Source: Blastocatellia bacterium (GTDB lineage Bacteria; Acidobacteriota; Blastocatellia; UBA7656; JADIYM01). From it: a stretch of 64,000 nucleotides of DNA. Where the stretch lies: positions 124,001 to 188,000 of the forward strand of contig JAJTWZ010000001.1 of the NCBI GenBank assembly GCA_021463145.1, in the 5' to 3' direction. A program made the translations under genes and the position numbers. Under the pieces are notes generated by a model that was not told the origin of the DNA, made no database searches, and saw nothing but the letters and a program-made list of their open reading frames with translations. This document shows positions 18,774 to 30,129 of the stretch, piece by piece; position 1 is the first letter of the stretch, and each line of letters starts with the position of its first letter.

Positions 18774-19181
18774 ATGAAGCTCAGTTTTCCATCGATCGGG
18801 CTCGCCGTCGTCGCGGCCCTTGCGCTGGCCGTCGTGCCATCTGTGCTTGCCGGACAGAACAAGAACGCGACGGCCCTGAAGCGGACCGTCACCATCCAGA
18901 ATTCCGCTACCCTCGGCGGCTCCTCGCTCGAAGCTGGCCAGTACGAGGCCGTCGTCGAGTTGACCGAGCCAGCCACGCTCGTCCTGAAGCGCGGCAACAA
19001 GGAACTGGCCCGCGTGCGCGTGATGCGCAAGGACCTGGCTTCCCAGTCCAGATATGACCGTGTCGACGTCCGCACGGCGAACGACGGCTCCAGGGAAGTC
19101 GTCGCCATCTACTTCAAGGGAGCCATCGAGAGCTTCCTCGTCGCCGACAACTCCGGGGTGGCCCTCGTCGAGAAACCGTGA
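18774..19181 (+). CDS. small secreted protein of unknown function
   Basis: 135 residues. A clear signal peptide (about residues 1-26, cleaving after LAG) precedes an all-beta-looking domain of about 108 residues, with LEAGQYEAVVELTEPATLVLKRG and AIYFKGAIESFLVAD. An excellent AGAGGTGA ribosome binding site lies just upstream, suggesting high expression. It is followed eight bases later by the LytS-type kinase gene. A periplasmic role linked to that sensor is possible but only inferred. Confidence 0.8.
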   Translation: MKLSFPSIGLAVVAALALAVVPSVLAGQNKNATALKRTVTIQNSATLGGSSLEAGQYEAVVELTEPATLVLKRGNKELARVRVMRKDLASQSRYDRVDVRTANDGSREVVAIYFKGAIESFLVADNSGVALVEKP

Positions 19182-19188
19182 TACAGAG

Positions 19189-20355
19189 ATGACTGTCCGT
19201 CGACACGACTGGGCCGGCGACGAGCCGGCCCTTTCCATTCCGCAGCGAGTTCCCGTGTTCAAGCTGTCGAAGTTGAGATTCTGTCTCGTAGACCGCATCG
19301 TGGTCTTCACGCTTGCGGGGCTTCTGCTCGCCCTCCACGTGGACTTCCCCTCTCTGGCGGTGCTTACCGGCTTCGTCTCGGCGATTGCGTACTACGCCGT
19401 CGAAACGTACGTGTATCCGCGAATCAGAGTAGCTGGCGAGTGGCGAATCCCGCTTCGCGCCGCGATCATCTTCGTGACCGGTGAAGCTATCGGAATGATC
19501 ACGATCGGTATTCCACTCGCAATGAGGTTCGCGGGTCCATTCGACACGTTCGAAGCGTTCCGGGCAACTTTCGGATGGGGCGGGGCGCTCGGCCTCGGCG
19601 TAGGAGCCGTCGGGACGATCATGTCGAGCTTCCAGGTACTTACAGCACAAACGGAGGAACAACAGGTCGCGCTCATCGAGTCGCAAAGGCAGGCCGCCGA
19701 ACTTCGAGAGCTTGCCGCACGCGCCGAAACCTCGGCGCTTCGCGCGCAGATCAATCCGCATTTTCTCTACAACGCCCTCAATACGCTCGCCTACCTGACC
19801 GAGGAAGACCCAGGCGCCGCCCGGCGCGTCGTCGAGAAGCTCGCCCGAATATTCCGCAGGACGCTCGAGCGTTCATCGGACGCGACGACGACGCTGGCCG
19901 AGGAACTGGAGTTCGTCGCCGACTACCTTGCAATCGAGTGCGAGCGATTCGACGACGTGCTCCACGTTAAGTCCTTCATCGAGCCGGAGACCCTTCGCGC
20001 CCGCGTTCCGACGATGATGCTTCAGCCGCTCGCCGAGAACGCGGTCAGGCACGGGATCTGCCCGGCCGCCAACGGCGGAACGTTCGTCGTGCGGACCTCG
20101 CTGCTGCGAAGCGCCAACCGATTGCGGATCGTCCTCGAGGACGACGGGAGAGGAATGGACGACAGCCGGCTGGCCGAGGTGACGACCGGTAACGCGGGTG
20201 TCGGTATTTCCAACGTGCGAGACAGGTTGAGACTGCAGTACGGAGATCGCGCTTCGGTCACGGTTCAGAGCCGTCTTGGCGAAGGAACAACCATCGTGCT
20301 CGAGTTCCCGTTCGAGCCCGCGGACGAGCTGGCGCGCGCGCTCGCGCAGGCCTGA
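19189..20355 (+). CDS. LytS-type membrane sensor histidine kinase
   Basis: 388 residues from the ATG at 19189 (the frame extends upstream, but only as a shadow of the secreted protein gene). Four hydrophobic segments (about 36-150) are followed by a coiled segment and the His_kinase domain motif AQINPHFLYNALNTLAYL with His191. The HATPase_c domain has LAENAVRHGI, EDDGRGMD and GVGISNVRDRL. Partner of the LytTR regulator that starts 12 bases downstream. GTG near 19255 is an alternative start. The signal is unknown; there is no large extracytoplasmic domain. Confidence 0.92.
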   Translation: MTVRRHDWAGDEPALSIPQRVPVFKLSKLRFCLVDRIVVFTLAGLLLALHVDFPSLAVLTGFVSAIAYYAVETYVYPRIRVAGEWRIPLRAAIIFVTGEAIGMITIGIPLAMRFAGPFDTFEAFRATFGWGGALGLGVGAVGTIMSSFQVLTAQTEEQQVALIESQRQAAELRELAARAETSALRAQINPHFLYNALNTLAYLTEEDPGAARRVVEKLARIFRRTLERSSDATTTLAEELEFVADYLAIECERFDDVLHVKSFIEPETLRARVPTMMLQPLAENAVRHGICPAANGGTFVVRTSLLRSANRLRIVLEDDGRGMDDSRLAEVTTGNAGVGISNVRDRLRLQYGDRASVTVQSRLGEGTTIVLEFPFEPADELARALAQA

Positions 20356-20366
20356 CGCGCGCTCGA

Positions 20367-21170
20367 ATGATCCGCGCACTAATCGTCGACGACGAACGCC
20401 GCGCGCGGGCCTACCTCGCCAAACTCGTTGCCGGGCACGCCGACGTCGAGATCGTCGGCGAAGCCCGCGACGGCCGCCGCGCCCTGGAGGCGATCCGGGA
20501 CTTGCGGCCCGACCTGGTATTCCTGGACGTGCAGATGCCCGAGATGAACGGACTGGAAGTCGCAAAGGCCTTGCCGCCGGACGATCCGCCGATTGTCGTG
20601 TTCACGACGGCATATGATCAGTTTGCGCTCGCGGCATTCGACCTGAGCGCAACCGACTACCTTCTCAAGCCATACGACGGCGACCGGCTGTCACGCGCGC
20701 TCGACCGGGTGCGTGAGGCCAGACGCGGCACGCGCGAAGGCGTTCGCGACGAAACCGCCGAAAGATTGGCACGACTGCTCGATGCACTCGAAAGCAAAGC
20801 CGCGAACCCGGCAGCGGCGCCCATTCTCACTCGCGTGCCAGTACAGGCGAAGGGCCGGATCGTGCTTCTGGATGCGGAACGGATCTCGCACTTCGCTTCA
20901 GAGGATCGGCTCGTTTTCGCTCATACTCGCGACGAAAAATGTCTCGTGAACTTCACGATAAAGGACCTCGAACTCCGCCTGCCGCCTGGAGTGTTTTTCC
21001 GCGTGCACCGATCGTACCTCGTCAACCTGGGCCACGTGCGCGAAGTCGCGCCGTGGTTTCACGGCAAGCTCATGCTCACGCTCGAAGGGGGCGCCGAGGT
21101 GCCGGTGAGCGAGGATCGGGCGCCGGGCCTCCGTTCCACAATCGGTCTCGCGTCCGACGATCGGAAATAG
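20367..21170 (+). CDS. LytTR-family response regulator
   Basis: 267 residues. The receiver (1-120) has Asp8/9, phospho-acceptor Asp54 in VFLDVQMPEMNG, the conserved Thr in VFTTAYD, and Lys in LLKPYD. A linker (about 120-150) precedes a LytTR DNA-binding domain (155-260), recognisable from FFRVHRSYLVNLGHVREV and the terminal strand GAEVPVSEDRA. Forms a two-component pair with the kinase upstream. Confidence 0.94.
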   Translation: MIRALIVDDERRARAYLAKLVAGHADVEIVGEARDGRRALEAIRDLRPDLVFLDVQMPEMNGLEVAKALPPDDPPIVVFTTAYDQFALAAFDLSATDYLLKPYDGDRLSRALDRVREARRGTREGVRDETAERLARLLDALESKAANPAAAPILTRVPVQAKGRIVLLDAERISHFASEDRLVFAHTRDEKCLVNFTIKDLELRLPPGVFFRVHRSYLVNLGHVREVAPWFHGKLMLTLEGGAEVPVSEDRAPGLRSTIGLASDDRK

Positions 21171-21227
21171 ATTGATCGCTCCGGATCGAGCGGATCTGGC
21201 GGATTCGCCGAATGGTGCGCCCTGACG

Positions 21228-21908
21228 TCAAGCCCTCTCCGCCAGCCAGGCGTCGATTAACGGGTGCACGTCGCGCGGCACGACGTGTCCACACTCGAAG
21301 GTCCGTACCGCGACCGTCCGCACGTGCTTCTCCAGCGCCTCGCAGTTTCTCGCCATTCGCTCGGGCCCGTAGAACTCATCCGCCGCCCCGCCGATCATGA
21401 GCACATCGAATTCGCCGGGAACGTAATCCGCGTTCGATTGGAGATCGCCAGGCACGCCACCGCAAATGCCGACGACGCCACGTACGACCGCCGGTTGAGT
21501 GAGCGCGATGCGCAGATTGAACGCCACCGCCTGTGAAAATCCGAGGAAAAACGCGCCTCCTTTAGCAATGCGCGCGTCGTCCTGCATATCGCGGAGCACC
21601 CGATGGATTGCGTCCCGGTGCAATGCGAGCGATTCGTCGAATCGATAGTTCGAGGCCCAGCCGAACGCGTACTTGAGAGCTTCCTCGCGCTTCTCGGGGT
21701 AGACGACGTGCTGATGCGGCGCCTGGAGTGCGACGAACGCATAACGCGTCTCGCTTATCCGCCGGCACAGCCGCATCATCGACGACTTGTCTCCACCGTA
21801 ACCGTGCATACCGAGGACCAGCGGGAACGGTCCTTCCCCTTCCGGGACGTAAAGATCGTAATAGCGCGCGAATTCCTGCGTGAATCGCCGCTCGACGGGC
21901 TCGGTCAT
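21228..21908 (-). CDS. alpha/beta hydrolase, phospholipase/carboxylesterase-like
   Basis: 226 residues. The strand LVLGMHGYGGDKSSM forms the oxyanion region. The nucleophile elbow is GFSQAVAFNLRIAL (Ser in a GxSxA context), with Asp in the LMIGGAADEFYG strand and His in FECGHVVPRD completing the triad. This is the layout of the YpfH/carboxylesterase family. It is the last gene of the heat-shock operon: its ATG overlaps the stop of the Clp/RF2 fusion (ATGA). A role in protein quality control or deacylation is not shown by sequence. Confidence 0.85.
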   Translation of the reverse strand: MTEPVERRFTQEFARYYDLYVPEGEGPFPLVLGMHGYGGDKSSMMRLCRRISETRYAFVALQAPHQHVVYPEKREEALKYAFGWASNYRFDESLALHRDAIHRVLRDMQDDARIAKGGAFFLGFSQAVAFNLRIALTQPAVVRGVVGICGGVPGDLQSNADYVPGEFDVLMIGGAADEFYGPERMARNCEALEKHVRTVAVRTFECGHVVPRDVHPLIDAWLAERA

Positions 21909-24802
21909 TGCTTGTCTCCGCTGTCGCGCCGCCTGAGTGCGACGACGTTGCGCCGAAGAAACGAGTCTATCCGGCCGTCGAGAAACGCCTCGACGTCGCG
22001 CCCGCTCACCACGAGGCCAGAGCGCGGGTCGCGCACCTTCCGCCGGCCCGACAATACGACGGTCCGCACGGCCTCGAGCGGCGACTCGGGCGTGGTTGGG
22101 ATAGCCATCAACAACTCGGTCGCTCTTTCGCGATTACGTTCGAGTCCTTCGCCGTTCTGGAGCCGCAGCGTGATGGCGCCGCGTCGCGCTACGACTCTCG
22201 ACCTGATTCGCCCGGACCGAATACCGCTGGCACGCAGCGATCGAGCTTCGATCACCTCGACCGAAGGAAGCGGTGAAGCCGGCTCGTCGCCAATCGGCAC
22301 GACACGGACGTTCGCCGCCGCAGAGATCGCTCGCTGCCCGTCGGCCGCCGCCCGCTCTTCGCGCATCCGGTGCACACCTGTCTCGCCTGCCAGATACCCA
22401 TAGGCGTACGGCCCATCGATCCGAATCGTCGCCATCGTCTCGCTCGACGCATCGGCCTCGACGTGCTCGTGCAGGAGCTCGGCCGGCCGCCGCACCTGCC
22501 CGGCCCAGCCTAGATACATTCCGGTCAGTCGCTCGAGCCATTCGAGGTCGTACGGCGATGTTCCCTGCACTCGTATCGTCACCAGCGCCGGGCGGTCGTC
22601 GCAATCCAGGAACGTCGTGGTCTCGACGGCGAGCCTGTCGACCGCCAGTTCAGCCCGCAGAAACGCACGGACGAGCTCGTCGCGGAGATTTCCTTCCCTC
22701 CGCGCGATGGCTCGACTGGCGCGACTCCCGATGTCGGCGCAGCGACCTTCGAGCTCGTCGAATCGTCCGACGATGCCGGCAAGCCGGTTATAGGCGTCGA
22801 ACGCCTCGAGCGCCTCTGCCTGATCCGTCCAGAAACCGGGCTCGTGGCGCGCCGCGCGCATCTCTTCCAGCCGAAGGCGTGCATCGTCGAGCCCGTACAG
22901 ATCACCGATACCGGCGATGCGTGCGCCAAGGGCCGCCGATGCGGCGCCAACGTCGCCCAGGGAAAGCCGGCGCCCCTCGATCGAGACTTCCTCGTCGACC
23001 TCTCGCGCCCGGCGGCTTTCCTCCGTGTCGATGATGCGAGCTGCAACCTCGCTTCGGCCCTTTGGCTCGAGACGGACGATCTGTCCCGCTTCGAGCGGCC
23101 GCTCCATCATCGCGACCGCGAGGGGCACAACGATCGAGCGGGATATCTCGCGCTTCAAGGCCCTGGCGCCGAACTTCGGATTGAATCCACACTCCATCAC
23201 ACGGTCGAGCAAGCGGTCGTCGACTTCCACACCGATCTGCCTGTCGGCAATGCCACGGCGCGAGTACACGCGCGCGAGCTCGCGAAGCGCAATACGCTTC
23301 ACGATGTCGAGAGAAAGCGAGCGGAAGACCACGATATGCTCGATCCTGTTGAGAAACTCCGGGCGGAACGCATCGTCGAGCGCGCGCCTCACGCGCTCGT
23401 CGGCCTCGTCGCCCGCCTCTGTGGCTGCGTCGGAGAAACCGTGAATCGGCCTTCCCTGCAGTCGCGGGTCAGTTCCGATATTCGACGTCAGGATGATGAT
23501 CGAGTTACGGAAATCCACGGTCTGCCCCGCAGCATCCGTGAGCCTGCCGTCGTCGAAGACCTGCAGGAACAGATCCGCGATGTTCGCGTGCGCCTTTTCG
23601 AACTCGTCGAGCAACACGACCGCGAATCCGTGCTGGCGCATCGCATCGACGAGGGTTCCGGGAGTGCCTGGCCGTTTCGGATCGCCAATGAGCTTTTCGA
23701 AGCTGTGGTAATCCTTGAACTCGGACATGTCGAAACGCAGCATCCGGCTCTCGCTTCCGAACAGGAATTCGGCCAGAGCTTTCGCGAGCTCGGTCTTGCC
23801 GACGCCCGTGGGGCCTACGAAGAGGAAAGTCCCGATCGGCTTCGCCGGATCGTTGAGTCCGGCCTTGAAGAGCGCAATGGTCTCGACGACTCGGTCGAGC
23901 GCGTGCTCCTGTCCTAGAACCCGTTCGTTGAAGAACTCGCGAACCGCCGAGGTCGATATCCGCTCCGAATCGGACAGGACGAACAGCGGAAGGCCGCTGA
24001 CAACGGAAAACGCCTCGTCGATCGTGCGCGCCGACACCACGGCCGCGCCTTGCGATGCTGACTCCCCCGCGAGGTGGACGGCGCGTTCGAAGAGCTCTAT
24101 CGCCTTCCCGGGTTGGTGACGATGGGGCAGGAAGCGGTTGGTTATCTCGACGGCCCGATCGAGCGCAGGTTCTTCGAATCTCGCGTTTCCCCGCGCCGCG
24201 AGTACAGTCGCCGATGACGAGAGCACTGGCCTGACGCTTTCGGCTGGAAGGGGTTCCACCCGAACCTGCGCGAACAGGTTCCGGAAGGAAGGCGCGAGGT
24301 CGAGATAGCTCGCGATCTGTGCCTTTGTTGCTTCACCGACGAGCGCGATTCGATGCGAGTCGATGAACTCCTTGAGGAGGTCGGCCATCGTCTCGTGCGT
24401 CGATTCGCTCCGGCCGACGGACGTGAGGTTCCAGACGTCCGTCACAAAGAGCACGGCGCCCGGAATGCCCTCGAGCTCGCGGACGAGCATGCTGATCTTC
24501 GACTGCCACTCACCGAGGTACTTCGTCTCGGAAATCATTCGCGACGTCGACGTCCGGAATACCCTCAGACCCGGCTGCGCATCGGGGCCGGCCGCTAAGT
24601 CGTCCGACACCATCCGGTTGACGATAGATGTCTTGCCGACGCCGGCCTCGCCCACCAGGAGCACGCTTCGGCGTGCCAGCAGGAGCTCGCGAAGCTGCCT
24701 GGCCTCCGCATCGCGCCCGACGACGGCCGGGGACTCACCACGAGCCGCGATCTGCCGAAGGTCGTCGGAGCACTGTTCCAAAGCAAGATCGTAAAGAGGC
24801 AT
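21905..24802 (-). CDS. ClpA/B-like AAA+ ATPase fused to a degenerate RF2-like domain
   Basis: 965 residues. A Clp-N repeat domain is lacking. AAA module 1 (about 25-275) has Walker A GEAGVGKT (51-58) and pore loop KYLGEW (94-99), but Walker B is degenerate (VLFVTD, 117-122; no catalytic Glu). There is no ClpB middle coiled coil. Module 2 (290-580) has Walker A GPTGVGKT (330-337), intact Walker B LLDEFE (397-402), sensor Asn441, NRI arginine finger (485-487) and GAR sensor 2 (545-547). Its GYVG-type pore loop is replaced by a Pro/Gly-rich stretch. Residues about 600-965 match RF2 along its length: PCRF region (EPGFWTDQAEAL), GPYAYGYL (797), ETGVHR (807), QNGEGLERNRERA (882), and the RF2 C-terminal tail. 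The SPF motif reads RAA and the GGQ loop is deleted. It cannot be a release factor; I infer a ribosome- or nascent-chain-directed unfoldase. Gene lies between hspR and the esterase. Confidence 0.9.
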   Translation of the reverse strand: MPLYDLALEQCSDDLRQIAARGESPAVVGRDAEARQLRELLLARRSVLLVGEAGVGKTSIVNRMVSDDLAAGPDAQPGLRVFRTSTSRMISETKYLGEWQSKISMLVRELEGIPGAVLFVTDVWNLTSVGRSESTHETMADLLKEFIDSHRIALVGEATKAQIASYLDLAPSFRNLFAQVRVEPLPAESVRPVLSSSATVLAARGNARFEEPALDRAVEITNRFLPHRHQPGKAIELFERAVHLAGESASQGAAVVSARTIDEAFSVVSGLPLFVLSDSERISTSAVREFFNERVLGQEHALDRVVETIALFKAGLNDPAKPIGTFLFVGPTGVGKTELAKALAEFLFGSESRMLRFDMSEFKDYHSFEKLIGDPKRPGTPGTLVDAMRQHGFAVVLLDEFEKAHANIADLFLQVFDDGRLTDAAGQTVDFRNSIIILTSNIGTDPRLQGRPIHGFSDAATEAGDEADERVRRALDDAFRPEFLNRIEHIVVFRSLSLDIVKRIALRELARVYSRRGIADRQIGVEVDDRLLDRVMECGFNPKFGARALKREISRSIVVPLAVAMMERPLEAGQIVRLEPKGRSEVAARIIDTEESRRAREVDEEVSIEGRRLSLGDVGAASAALGARIAGIGDLYGLDDARLRLEEMRAARHEPGFWTDQAEALEAFDAYNRLAGIVGRFDELEGRCADIGSRASRAIARREGNLRDELVRAFLRAELAVDRLAVETTTFLDCDDRPALVTIRVQGTSPYDLEWLERLTGMYLGWAGQVRRPAELLHEHVEADASSETMATIRIDGPYAYGYLAGETGVHRMREERAAADGQRAISAAANVRVVPIGDEPASPLPSVEVIEARSLRASGIRSGRIRSRVVARRGAITLRLQNGEGLERNRERATELLMAIPTTPESPLEAVRTVVLSGRRKVRDPRSGLVVSGRDVEAFLDGRIDSFLRRNVVALRRRDSGDKQ

Positions 24803-24820
24803 GCTTTGGAGGGTCGGGCG

Positions 24821-25213
24821 TCAGTCGTCAGACGAGCGTCGGAGCACCGCCAGCGACGTGTATCGCCTGGGCACAAGCGCCAGGCGAACCCGCTCGTCGG
24901 CCTGATCCGGCTCGGAGGAAAGATGCTCACGCAACGCTCCCAGAATCTGTTCGAAGTCGCGCTGCATATTGTCCATTCGTTCGAGCATGTCGAGGATGAT
25001 CGCCACGCCAGCAAGGTTCACACCGAGATCGCGGGTCAGCGACAGGATGGTCTCGAGCCGGACGAGGTCCTCGTCAGTGTAGAGCCGCGTGTTTCCCTTC
25101 GACCTCGACGGCTTCAGCAGGCCCTCGCGCTCGTACAGCCTCAGCGTCTGCTGATGAAGTCCATAAGTCTCTGACACGACGCCGATCGTGTATGTCATGG
25201 ACTTCTTTCGCAT
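24821..25213 (-). CDS. hspR: MerR-family heat-shock regulator HspR
   Basis: 130 residues. The N-terminal MerR helix-turn-helix and wing match HspR very closely (YTIGVVSETYGLHQQTLRLYE, then LLKPSRSKGNTRLYTDEDL), followed by LTRDLGVNLAGVAIIL. HspR represses dnaK operons by binding HAIR inverted repeats, usually with DnaK as corepressor. Its place after dnaJ matches the actinobacterial dnaK-dnaJ-hspR order. A GGAGG 11 bases before the ATG supports this start; MTYTIG five codons later is an alternative. Confidence 0.93.
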   Translation of the reverse strand: MRKKSMTYTIGVVSETYGLHQQTLRLYEREGLLKPSRSKGNTRLYTDEDLVRLETILSLTRDLGVNLAGVAIILDMLERMDNMQRDFEQILGALREHLSSEPDQADERVRLALVPRRYTSLAVLRRSSDD

Positions 25214-25238
25214 TGTGTCGGGCCCCTCCTTTGCGAAG

Positions 25239-26294
25239 TCAGGCCTTGCCGGCCGGTTCCAGTCCGGGCAGGCTGGCGCGAGGGTTTTCGGGATTCAGTC
25301 TGGCGTACTCTGACAGCACGTCCTTGGTTTCCTCGCTGATCACCGTCGGGAGAACTATACGAACCTCAACGAACTGGTCGCCACGCGCGTTGCCGCGAAG
25401 CGACGGCACGCCGCGATCGCGCAATCGAAACTTCTGGCCCGATTGCGTACCCGGCGGTACCCGCATAACGGTCGGACCATCGATTGTCGGCACGTCGATT
25501 CGCGCTCCGAGTGCGGCTTCCGGCACGGTGAGCGGGATCGTGCAGTACAGGTTGTCGCCCTTCCTCGTGAAAAAAGCGTGGTCGCTCACCTTCGTGATGA
25601 TGAACAGATCGCCAGTTGGTCCTCCACGCTTGCCGGAATGACCTTTCCCCGCGACACGCACCCGGCTGCCGGTGTCGACTCCCGCGGGGATCTTAACGTT
25701 CCGGATTACATCGCGCTTTTCGACGGTGCCGCGGCCGCGGCACGCCGGACAGATGGCGGGCGCATTGCGGACCTGGCCAGTGCCACCGCAGTCCGCGCAG
25801 ACCACGGACCGGCTGATCGTGATGTTCGTCGTAAGACCCCTCAGCGATTCGTCGAAGCTGATGGACAACGGATACTCGATGTCGTCACCGCGCTTGGGTT
25901 GGGGCGGCTCAGGTTGCGGGGCGCGACCGCCCCCCGGCGGCCGGAACCCCGCGGCGCCGCCCCCTCCGCCCCCGCTGAAGAGATCCGAGAAGATGTCGCG
26001 GAAACTCGATGCGCCGAAACCCGAAAAGTCGAATCCCGGCCCGCCGCCCTCCTGGGCCATGCGTTCCGTGGCTTCGGAGTACGTTCCGTAACGATCGTAG
26101 ATCTCCCGCTTCTTCGGGTCCGACAGGACATCGAAGGCCTCGGAGATCTGCTTGAACTTGTCCTCCGCTTCCTTTTTGCCCGGATTCACGTCCGGGTGAT
26201 ACTTGCGGGCAAGGCGGCGGTAGGCCTTCTTGATGTCTTCGGGCTTCGCGTCTCGCGAGACGCCGAGCGTTTTGTAGAAGTCATCGCGTGCCAT
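25239..26294 (-). CDS. dnaJ: DnaJ co-chaperone with a reduced zinc finger
   Basis: 351 residues. The J domain (1-70) has HPD at 33-35. A Gly/Phe-rich linker (80-120) contains a long Gly run. The substrate-binding domain has only two CxxCxGxG-type motifs, Cys166/169 and Cys182/185, instead of the four of classical DnaJ, so it can build one zinc site, not two. The C-terminal domains are normal ([28 protein letters not shown]). It stimulates the DnaK ATPase. Lies 107 bases after dnaK and just before hspR; no grpE is present. Confidence 0.93.
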
Positions 26295-26401
26295 GGCTCA
26301 CCAGCGTCGATCTCGGTGTTACAAGGCCATCGTGCTGCCGGAGCGGCTCCCGTTCGGAAGCCGCCCCGCGTCCATACACGACCAGGCCGTGGCGACGGAT
26401 C

Positions 26402-28345
<1,944 letters not shown>

Positions 28346-28386
28346 TCAGGCTACTAGCCACCCACGCTTCTATTATCAACGGGCGA

Positions 28387-28415
28387 AATATAAAACCTGA
28401 GTGAGAGAGTGTCAA
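28387..28415 (-). promoter_or_regulatory. sigma-70 promoter of the dnaK operon
   Basis: A perfect -35 TTGACA (28415-28410) and a near-perfect -10 TATATT (28392-28387) are separated by exactly 17 bases. The start of transcription is expected near 28380, giving a leader of about 60 bases. This is a housekeeping-type promoter, consistent with control by a repressor and not by an alternative sigma factor. Confidence 0.8.
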
Positions 28416-28416
28416 A
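28396..28416. promoter_or_regulatory. HAIR-like HspR operator
   Basis: Read on the plus strand, CCTGAGT-N7-TGTCAAA matches the HspR inverted repeat CTTGAGT-N7-ACTCAAG at 10 of 14 positions: six of seven in the left arm, four of seven in the right. It covers the spacer and the -35 box of the dnaK promoter, so binding would block RNA polymerase. Its weak right arm partly coincides with the -35 box. Binding is inference from the match and from the hspR gene in the operon. Confidence 0.5.
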
Positions 28417-28457
28417 TTTAATTTCGAACTGGCAGTCAAATCCTTGAAACAGACGGG

Positions 28458-29042
28458 TCAGGTTGAGGGTGGAATCCTCTCGACCTGCCACGCGGCGAGT
28501 TGGCGGCGTCCGTGAAAGATGTAGTGCACGCCCGAAACGACGATGCTTGTGGCCGTAACGTAGACCGACAGGGTCAGGAGCCATTCCGGAAGTCCGAAAG
28601 CCCGGGCCAGCAGGAAGTAGAAAAGGACCCACAACTCCACATTTGTGTTGAGTTTACCCAGAAACGTCGGCGTGAACCCCGAGAACCCGGTCACTCGATT
28701 TATCACGACCCCCGCGCCGAGAATTCCAACATCGCGCGCGATCGCAAGCGCCGCCAACCACCACGGAAGCGGCTCGAACCCGTATCCGGGCAGCGATGCC
28801 GCCAGAAACGTCGAAACGAGCAACAATTTGTCGGCAATCGGATCCAGCAGTCGTCCGAAGTCGCTCGACTGCTCGAGACGTCTTGCGATCATGCCGTCGA
28901 AGAGATCCGTGAGTCCCGCGACGACCACGATGGCGATTGCCAACCCGAATCTGGACTCCAGGATCGACCAGACCAGCGGCACCGTCGCGAAGCCACGCGC
29001 GATGGTCAGCAGGTTCGGCACGGTCAGGACTCGTCGAGTCAT
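28458..29042 (-). CDS. CDP-alcohol phosphatidyltransferase (PgsA-like)
   Basis: 194 residues, several transmembrane helices. The full catalytic signature D-x2-DG-x2-AR-x8-G-x3-D-x3-D is present without error, from DLFDG to DPIAD at about residues 46-71. The family makes phosphatidylglycerophosphate or related lipids from CDP-diacylglycerol. PgsA is the most likely identity, but the alcohol substrate cannot be read from the sequence. Follows tatC with a 43-base gap. Confidence 0.88.
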   Translation of the reverse strand: MTRRVLTVPNLLTIARGFATVPLVWSILESRFGLAIAIVVVAGLTDLFDGMIARRLEQSSDFGRLLDPIADKLLLVSTFLAASLPGYGFEPLPWWLAALAIARDVGILGAGVVINRVTGFSGFTPTFLGKLNTNVELWVLFYFLLARAFGLPEWLLTLSVYVTATSIVVSGVHYIFHGRRQLAAWQVERIPPST

Positions 29043-29085
29043 CGGCGCCTTCGGCGCTGACTCGCGATTTCGAGGTCAGGCGCCG

Positions 29086-30129
29086 TCACTCGGTTTCGTA
29101 CTCCGCTTCCGTTCGTCTCTTCCGATGGAAGAACCAGGCGATTCCGACGCTCACCGTATACAGCGCGATCATCGGCGCCGCAAAAACGAGCAGGTTGGGG
29201 ATGTCGGCTGTCGGCGACACGACCGCCGCCACCAGGAAGATCCCGATCAACGCGTAACGCCAGAACTTGATGAGCATACCGGCCGTCAGCAGACCCAACC
29301 GGGCCAGAAAGTAAGTCACCGTGGGGATCTGGAACACGAGGCCCAGGCCGAGCATTATGAAGAGGATGAGGTCGAAGTACTCGTCGGCGTTGATGAGCGG
29401 CTGGAAGTTGCCTTCTCCCAGTTGAATCAGGTACTTGCACGCAGCCGGGAATGCGATCTCGTACGCAAAGAACACGCCCAGGCCGAAACACACCGTTCCA
29501 AGGCCGACGAATGGCACAACGTAGGATCGCTCGTGTGCGTAGAGGCCGGGCGAGATGAATCCCCAAAGCTGGAAGAGCAGGAACGGCATCGCGAAGACTA
29601 TCGCCGTGTAGAAGGCTACCTTTACATAAAGGTTGAACGTCCCTTGCACGGTCTCGACTACCAGCCTGTCGCCCGGCTGCGCATACGTAGCGGTCGCGAC
29701 GAGTTCGGCCGGCAGCGGCGAGCCTTCGGGAAACAGCTTCTGCCCGACGCCCCAAGGTCGCGACGGAACGATGGTCCTCCCGGCGTCCGAATCCTCGATG
29801 CGGGCAGCGATAGTCGTTCCGGCCGGAATCTCGACTCCATCGAGCTGCACGGGAGCCCGGAACGTGTACTGGATTTCGGTGCCGGCCGCGATCGCGAGAA
29901 GGTCGGTTGTGCCTGCCGACGTGACCGACACCTGCTGGGCCGCCTTGGCCTCGGCTAGCGCCGCGGTAACCGGAACCGACAGGAAATTGAAGATCCGGTC
30001 GGCGAACACCCAGCCGACCACGAACATCACCGCAATCGCGATCGCCGACCTTACGAGGCGCGAACGCAGCTCGTCGAGATGCTCGAGGAACGACATCTCG
30101 TGACCGGACGCGGACGGGGTGCCGGGCAT
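29086..30129 (-). CDS. tatC: Sec-independent translocase TatC with a large periplasmic insert
   Basis: Core of the twin-arginine translocase that exports folded proteins. The N-terminal FLEHLDELRSRL motif and the FAMPFLLFQLWGFISPGLYAHER region are typical. Length is 347 residues, against about 250 usually. The excess is an insert of about 90 residues (66-155) in the first periplasmic loop, between TM1 and the conserved TFNLYVKVAFY segment. The insert looks beta-rich and contains TTDLLAIAAGTEIQYTFRAP and a Pro/Gly-rich part. Five bases after tatA/B. Confidence 0.93.
   Translation of the reverse strand: MPGTPSASGHEMSFLEHLDELRSRLVRSAIAIAVMFVVGWVFADRIFNFLSVPVTAALAEAKAAQQVSVTSAGTTDLLAIAAGTEIQYTFRAPVQLDGVEIPAGTTIAARIEDSDAGRTIVPSRPWGVGQKLFPEGSPLPAELVATATYAQPGDRLVVETVQGTFNLYVKVAFYTAIVFAMPFLLFQLWGFISPGLYAHERSYVVPFVGLGTVCFGLGVFFAYEIAFPAACKYLIQLGEGNFQPLINADEYFDLILFIMLGLGLVFQIPTVTYFLARLGLLTAGMLIKFWRYALIGIFLVAAVVSPTADIPNLLVFAAPMIALYTVSVGIAWFFHRKRRTEAEYETE

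Follow-up and report, generated by a model that had tools for sequence, protein, structure and literature searches.

We use profile searches, alignments, structure prediction and genome comparison to study one gene, here called clpRF, in a stretch of 64,000 nucleotides of a Blastocatellia bacterium of the Acidobacteriota (contig JAJTWZ010000001.1, positions 124,001 to 188,000; hereafter the window). Judged by its sequence, the product ClpRF is a member of an undescribed, widespread clade of Hsp100/Clp-type ATPases with a dead tail derived from peptide release factor 2 (RF2). A preceding sequence-only reading had called the gene a Clp-type ATPase fused to an almost full-length RF2-like domain, an architecture for which it knew of no description; we likewise find no description of any fusion between a Clp-type ATPase and a release factor in the open-access literature, subscription papers and preprints being outside the search. 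Throughout, sequence positions are those of the whole window, and residue numbers of ClpRF are those of its own product of 965 amino acids.

A single gene with one architecture

clpRF is one unbroken frame of 965 codons that begins with an ATG at 24802 and lies on the minus strand, with the ends that the sequence-only reading had given; the plus strand is closed across this stretch. That reading had named a frameshift or an assembly join between two separate genes as one finding that would undo it. We reject this explanation: the GC content by codon position is even along the entire gene and so gives no sign of a frameshift or join, and an assembly artefact is ruled out because relatives in other phyla (three phyla and some 55 independent genomes in all) have the same end-to-end architecture. 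Along the protein, the Pfam matches follow in the order AAA, AAA_2, ClpB_D2-small and PCRF (Table 1).

The C-terminal tail is related to RF2

The NCBIfam prfB model matches residues 627-843 of ClpRF (E = 5.2e-25), and the protein is nearer to RF2 than to RF1 (88 versus 20 bits, NCBIfam), the RF1 model reaching only 2e-4. Residues 586-965 match the RF2 of PDB entry 1gqe with E = 1e-15 (phmmer), and a profile-profile comparison of 50 tails with 27 RF2 sequences (hhalign) gives a probability of 100 and an E-value of 2.3e-42 over 320 columns. An AlphaFold2 (AF2) model of the tail, built from homologues that share the ClpRF architecture, reaches a predicted local distance difference test score (pLDDT) of 82 and a predicted template-modelling score (pTM) of 0.69. 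With this model Foldseek lists 50 matches, every one of them RF1 or RF2 (best E = 3e-18), and the predicted fold contains RF2 domains 1, 2, 3 and 4; the TM-scores are only about 0.5 over the full length, which we attribute to differing interdomain angles. On both sequence and predicted structure, then, the tail is homologous to RF2 over residues ~640-960. The similarity that the sequence-only reading saw there, and the structure comparison that it suggested, are thus borne out. It had named both the PCRF and the RF-1 domain: PCRF is matched, but PF00472 (RF-1, the GGQ domain) has no Pfam match in ClpRF, because the GGQ domain is degenerate.

Conservation over the 50 tails (percentages in own-RF2 numbering) shows which parts of RF2 have been kept. 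Core residues G169, E179, G181 and H183 are retained in 100, 98, 100 and 100% of tails. The best-preserved part is the C-terminal segment (R308 100%, Y310 98%, D320 94%, G336 94%, D339 90%), the characteristic RF2 C-terminus that had been recognized from the letters alone. The net charge of domain 1 moves from -10.5 per 100 amino acids in RF2 to +0.4 in the tails, and that of domains 2/4 from -3.8 to +0.6; a neutral tail would fit an altered, more RNA-tolerant surface.

The motifs of a release factor are lost

In the same 50 tails, the Gln column of the GGQ motif is kept in 0 of 50 and its first Gly in 2%, and the window protein reads SGIRSGR at this position. The three SPF residues are kept in 6, 6 and 0% (the Phe in none), the stop-codon-reading His and Thr in 6% each, and the two glycines of the GGxE tip of alpha5 in 4 and 10%. 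Going by these columns, the tail is without what RF2 needs for stop-codon reading and for peptidyl-tRNA hydrolysis by the GGQ route. The phrase "almost full-length RF2" therefore holds for the structure but is wrong for the function, since every member has lost GGQ, SPF and the remaining codon-reading residues.

Each of the five fusion genomes that we checked also carries a full-length RF2-like gene apart from the fusion, and ClpRF is for this reason not the housekeeping release factor. With the GGQ Gln and the SPF Phe at 0% in 50 members, we reject a working release factor fused to a chaperone; adding the some 55 independent genomes and the uniform codon-position GC, the chance that ClpRF is either an artefact of assembly or an active release factor is negligible, and nothing turned up in favour of either reading. 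Compared with RF2 (prfB), ClpRF is alike in domains 1, 2 and 4, in core residues and in predicted fold, and differs in the missing motifs, in its fusion to an ATPase and in having an RF2-type gene alongside. PrfH, ArfB and the mitochondrial release factor relatives are specialised class-I relatives for non-standard ribosomes; they retain GGQ and act by hydrolysis, whereas GGQ is absent in ClpRF.

One clade of the family (support 100/100 in the D2 tree) is without the bulk of domain 3, and retains the C-terminal VRRY...PSPLVRD..RGWRTG...GDFD. Of the 18 clade members with a usable N-terminus, at least 14 have a clear hydrophobic anchor there, against 0 of about 30 members that keep domain 3. Loss of domain 3 coincides with the presence of the anchor. 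The arginines that follow the anchor suggest a cytosolic ATPase in this clade.

Only the second ATPase module has a complete active site

By sequence, residues 25-580 are a ClpA/C-like tandem AAA+ ATPase, and the Pfam matches in this region agree with the two Clp-type modules (D1 and D2) that had been proposed there. The best NCBIfam matches are ClpB (3.5e-112) and ClpA (2.1e-105), both far below the curated cut-offs (376 versus 1232 bits and 354 versus 993 bits). The alignment shows no insertion in the D1 small subdomain, that is, no ClpB-type M domain, and ClpRF is thus not a ClpB. Membership in either family was rejected, with scores below both cut-offs and key motifs missing.

The motifs were tabulated for 49 members of the main subfamily (A), 8 of a sister subfamily (B) and 8 canonical controls. 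D1 of the window protein keeps Walker A (GEAGVGKT) and an aromatic pore loop (KYLGEWQ), the Tyr of which is found in 33 of 49 members. Its Walker-B pair is lost (at the aligned columns D in 0 and E in 1 of 49), as are the Arg fingers (the second Arg in 0 of 49). In D2 of the window protein Walker A, Walker B (LLDEFEK), sensor 1 and the Arg finger are all intact; across the family the Walker-B DE, the Arg-finger Arg and the sensor-2 GAR are each present in 49 of 49 members and the Gly-Lys-Thr of Walker A in 48 of 49 or better. The GYVG pore loop of D2 is gone, with its Tyr in 0 of 49 (A) and 0 of 8 (B) against 5 of 8 canonical controls. Separately, at three loci in the window genome and in relatives, ClpA-like proteins of ordinary length have RGIVG rather than PGYVG as their D2 pore loop.

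As judged from these motifs, a complete ATPase site is present in D2 alone, so that the ATP hydrolysis of ClpRF must come from D2, and standard threading through D2 is unlikely. Next to the tandem ATPases ClpA, ClpC and ClpB, ClpRF is alike in its two modules, D2 catalytic set, D2 small domain and aromatic D1 pore loop, and differs in having no M domain, no D1 Walker-B DE or Arg fingers, no D2 GYVG and an RF2-like tail. The sequence-only reading had ended on an unfoldase or disaggregase, which is doubtful because the D2 pore loop and the D1 hydrolysis motifs are lost and there is no M domain. With the release-factor motifs also lost, ClpRF is by its motifs neither a release factor nor a canonical threading disaggregase.

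The family spans three phyla

An initial screen of 84,980 species genomes, using a handful of short peptide patterns, turned up relatives of full length among the Gammaproteobacteria (Ketobacter being one) and the Planctomycetota. The tail profile (A1) is dominated by ordinary RF2 when used as a genome probe; for counts we use the full-length profile (A3), by which the fusions score well clear of ordinary Clp proteins. Fusion genomes number about 12 of 396 in Acidobacteriota, 41 of 392 in Planctomycetota and 3 of 369 in Gammaproteobacteria. Some genomes of the window's class encode a PsaA/PsaB-type reaction centre, as would fit Chloracidobacterium and a host that is very probably an acidobacterium. 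These counts are lower bounds, because the genomes are a sample and two candidates were scored per genome. One Bacillota-type group gave 0 fusions in 265 genomes in a scan run without a positive control, and the plasmid and phage collections gave plain RF2 genes and no fusion. Membership in a defence system was rejected, the PADLOC matches reflecting the AAA_2 domain only.

In an unrooted tree the family is separate from canonical Clp proteins (support 100/99). The window protein groups with those of Gammaproteobacteria (99/99), which implies horizontal transfer. The sister subfamily (B) consists of proteins of about 1,100 amino acids with a tail that is still more diverged; often they are encoded by the first and second genes in a tandem array of three Clp genes. 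In deep alignments this tail matches RF2 with a probability of 97% (E = 2e-10) and the main family with 98% (E = 2e-14); an early profile comparison with a single RF2 gave a probability of 0.9% only. The top 26 matches of its AF2 model are RF2 or RF1 (best E = 9e-6). Since the sister tail is RF2-like as well, the RF2-derived tail appears, on sequence and model, to be ancestral to the whole clade of main family and sister subfamily.

Several features vary across the family. The cluster of three tandem Clp genes is conserved in Acidobacteriota, Planctomycetota and one Gammaproteobacterium (seven loci) and comprises two proteins of about 1,100 amino acids with RF2-related tails and one of about 765 without a tail; the pair with tails may assemble into a hetero-complex. 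In a Planctomycetota member (L008:5110-8844) the N-terminal extension contains HEAT repeats (Pfam HEAT_2, 1.3e-10), and other members have N-terminal extensions of about 230-300 amino acids. Two full-length relatives of about 1,000 amino acids, L084 (G375) and G603:C767, are very divergent, and L084 falls outside both subfamilies; the two may represent a lineage that split off early or evolves fast.

clpRF in a heat-shock gene cluster

In the window, clpRF comes fourth in a tight cluster of minus-strand genes, dnaK-dnaJ-hspR-clpRF-hydrolase (Table 1), in which an hspR-like gene thus stands together with dnaK; the HspR match, at 93.3 bits, is slightly under the curated cut-off of 105. There is no terminator-like site between these five genes, and from the gene spacing we infer that clpRF is co-transcribed with dnaK, dnaJ and hspR, with the alpha/beta-hydrolase the likely last gene of the operon. 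The promoter upstream of dnaK is the sole sigma70-like match in 20900..29100, where 1.2 are expected by chance; it matches at 11 of 12 positions and is well placed. An upstream scan for inverted repeats, as for a HAIR operator, was not above chance, and a half-site-like ACTCAGG lies within the dnaK promoter.

The heat-shock setting proposed by the sequence-only reading thus holds for the window but is not general: dnaK/dnaJ are nearby in only 2 of about 43 family loci, the window and Ketobacter, and in Ketobacter dapB stands between dnaK/dnaJ and the fusion gene. There the fusion gene sits between dapB and carA, within the order dnaK-dnaJ-dapB-carA-carB (dapB and carA named by position and size only); dnaK-dnaJ-dapB-carAB is the normal gammaproteobacterial order. 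Clustering of the neighbour genes at 57 loci, called by codon usage, gave no constant neighbour for the main subfamily besides the ATPase. On the plus strand of the window at 19054-21170, a LytS-type histidine kinase and then a LytTR-type response regulator (from translations only) are convergent with the clpRF operon.

Table 1. Features of the clpRF region, in window coordinates.
Feature	Position	Strand	Residues or placement	Basis
clpRF, tandem AAA+ ATPase of Clp type with a degenerate RF2-like module at the C-terminus	21905..24802	-	965 aa	Open frame, Pfam/NCBIfam, relatives
D1 AAA+ module	24083..24730	-	~25-240	Pfam AAA 47-149; motif table
D2 AAA+ module	23336..23842	-	321-489	Pfam AAA_2 1.5e-45; motif table
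D2 small domain with sensor-2 GAR	23072..23317	-	496-577	ClpB_D2-small 2.3e-12
RF2-like module	21923..22888	-	~639-960	Domains 1, 2, 4 recognisable, domain 3 degenerate
PCRF domain proper	22361..22873	-	644-814	Pfam PF03462 1.6e-13
RF2 GGQ-loop position, catalytic motif absent	22208..22228	-	859-865	Alignments
hspR-like MerR regulator	24821..25213	-	18 bp upstream of clpRF	NCBIfam HspR 7.1e-27; MerR_1
dnaJ	25239..26294	-		NCBIfam DnaJ 4e-101
dnaK	26402..28321	-		NCBIfam DnaK 1030 bits
alpha/beta-hydrolase	21228..21908	-	Overlaps clpRF stop by 4 bp	Pfam Abhydrolase_2 1.5e-8
sigma70-like promoter	28387..28415	-	Upstream of dnaK	TTGACA-N17-TATATT

Discussion

What could an ATPase do with a release factor that has lost its chemistry? 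We tentatively propose, at a confidence somewhat short of even, that the dead RF2 module is a codon-independent docking arm on ribosomal or other ribonucleoprotein (RNP) targets, which are then remodelled by the power of D2. A tandem ATPase of the ClpA/C kind would have gained an RF2 at its C-terminus by fusion, and all release-factor chemistry would have been lost thereafter. After heat shock, derepression from HspR would lead to ClpRF being made together with DnaK and DnaJ. Its tail would dock, without codon reading, where an A site is accessible, on ribosomes or on RNPs associated with them; the ring, with D2 as its motor and the D1 loop as its grip, would then remodel or pull off whatever is bound there. 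ClpRF itself would not release peptide, and in the membrane-anchored clade the remodelling would take place at the inner membrane. Ribosomes with an open A site would be the most economical docking target for such a tail. A precedent for docking is Balon, which binds the ribosomal A site under stress without codon-recognition and GGQ motifs (PMC10901736) and so demonstrates that an A-site factor fold can do this; it resembles the ClpRF tail in being a release-factor-type protein without these motifs and with a link to stress, and differs in its unrelated aeRF1/Pelota fold, its delivery by EF-Tu and its lack of an ATPase.

Several observations weigh against this proposal. The RF2 residues that were lost are exactly those that touch the mRNA and the peptidyl-transferase centre. 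The anchored clade without domain 3 and the more diverged sister tail mean that ribosome binding may be neither ancestral nor general. The loss of the D2 pore loop argues, at the level of motifs, against ordinary threading, and the scarcity of dnaK/dnaJ among the family loci does not favour a general heat-shock role.

The strongest competitor, possible although we doubt it, is that the tail has been repurposed away from ribosomes and become an adaptor, binding RNA or protein, through which a specific client is brought to the Clp ring. Its model is PrfB3 of Arabidopsis and land-plant chloroplasts, a relative of RF2 that lacks SPF and GGQ, binds the petB 3' untranslated region and protects petB mRNA (PMC5897788). 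By its description, PrfB3 is like the ClpRF tail in being an RF2 relative stripped of the same two motifs for another job; it differs in being a stand-alone, eukaryotic binder of petB mRNA with no ATPase. The precedents, taken as analogies, pull two ways: Balon to the A site, PrfB3 away from termination. An adaptor would also fit the absence of the ribosome active-site motifs in all members, the membrane-anchored clade without domain 3, the shift in domain charge, and the patchy distribution with no constant neighbours. However, the layout of domains 1, 2 and 4 and the E-G-H and VRRY...VRD core are strongly constrained across very divergent hosts, which exceeds the needs of a loose remnant, although such constraint would fit a structural role too.

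It is unlikely that the tail is a structural cap and nothing else, stabilising or regulating the AAA+ ring in compensation for the degenerate D1 and having no external target. The D1 hydrolysis motifs are indeed lost throughout, the tail follows directly after the D2 small domain in both subfamilies, and core residues are highly and functional residues poorly conserved; but a cap leaves unexplained why RF2 was recruited and its multi-domain layout kept. Rather unlikely as well is a hibernation or protection factor, in which the dead RF2 fills the A site of idle, heat-stressed ribosomes while the AAA+ part governs how it is loaded and removed. The behaviour of Balon, the heat-shock operon of the window and the codon independence expected from the sequence would suit it; factors of this kind are, however, small and stoichiometric, a large ATPase being a costly plug, and one clade has deleted domain 3, the part that would extend to the peptidyl-transferase centre.

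A protease partnered by ClpP and aimed at stalled nascent chains is improbable. The hydrophobic-Gly-Phe loop of ClpA/ClpC is kept in D2 ([V/L/I]GF; an automatic count finds it in at least 33 of 49 members, and inspection by eye in more), so that ClpRF may dock on ClpP; at this position the same genome's canonical ClpB shows DLGA. But the sequence in the window protein is HGF, D2 lacks the pore loop that feeding ClpP would require, and other, non-fused Clp proteins of the fusion genomes carry the loop too.

If the docking proposal is pursued to its full extent, ClpRF would belong to a new ribosome-directed AAA+ class in which a dead RF2 gives codon-free recognition of the A site for remodelling stalled or heat-damaged ribosomes, in a soluble and a membrane-anchored branch; we regard this wider claim as speculative, a possibility rather than an expectation. 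The soluble branch would include the form encoded in the heat-shock operon, and the anchored branch would work at the inner membrane. If true, this would be a branch of bacterial ribosome quality control or recycling other than transfer-messenger RNA (tmRNA), ArfA/B and RqcH. For Planctomycetota and Acidobacteriota, the family provides a candidate for an energy-driven factor whose targets would be ribosomes or ribosome-like. The open-access papers searched do not describe an Hsp100 clade marked by an RF2 tail either. ClpRF challenges the simple rule of two-ring threading by Clp rings, as its D1 is dead and its D2 is without the pore loop. An RF2 stripped of its chemistry and reused is a fate seen once in plant plastids; here it would be ancestral to a large bacterial family.

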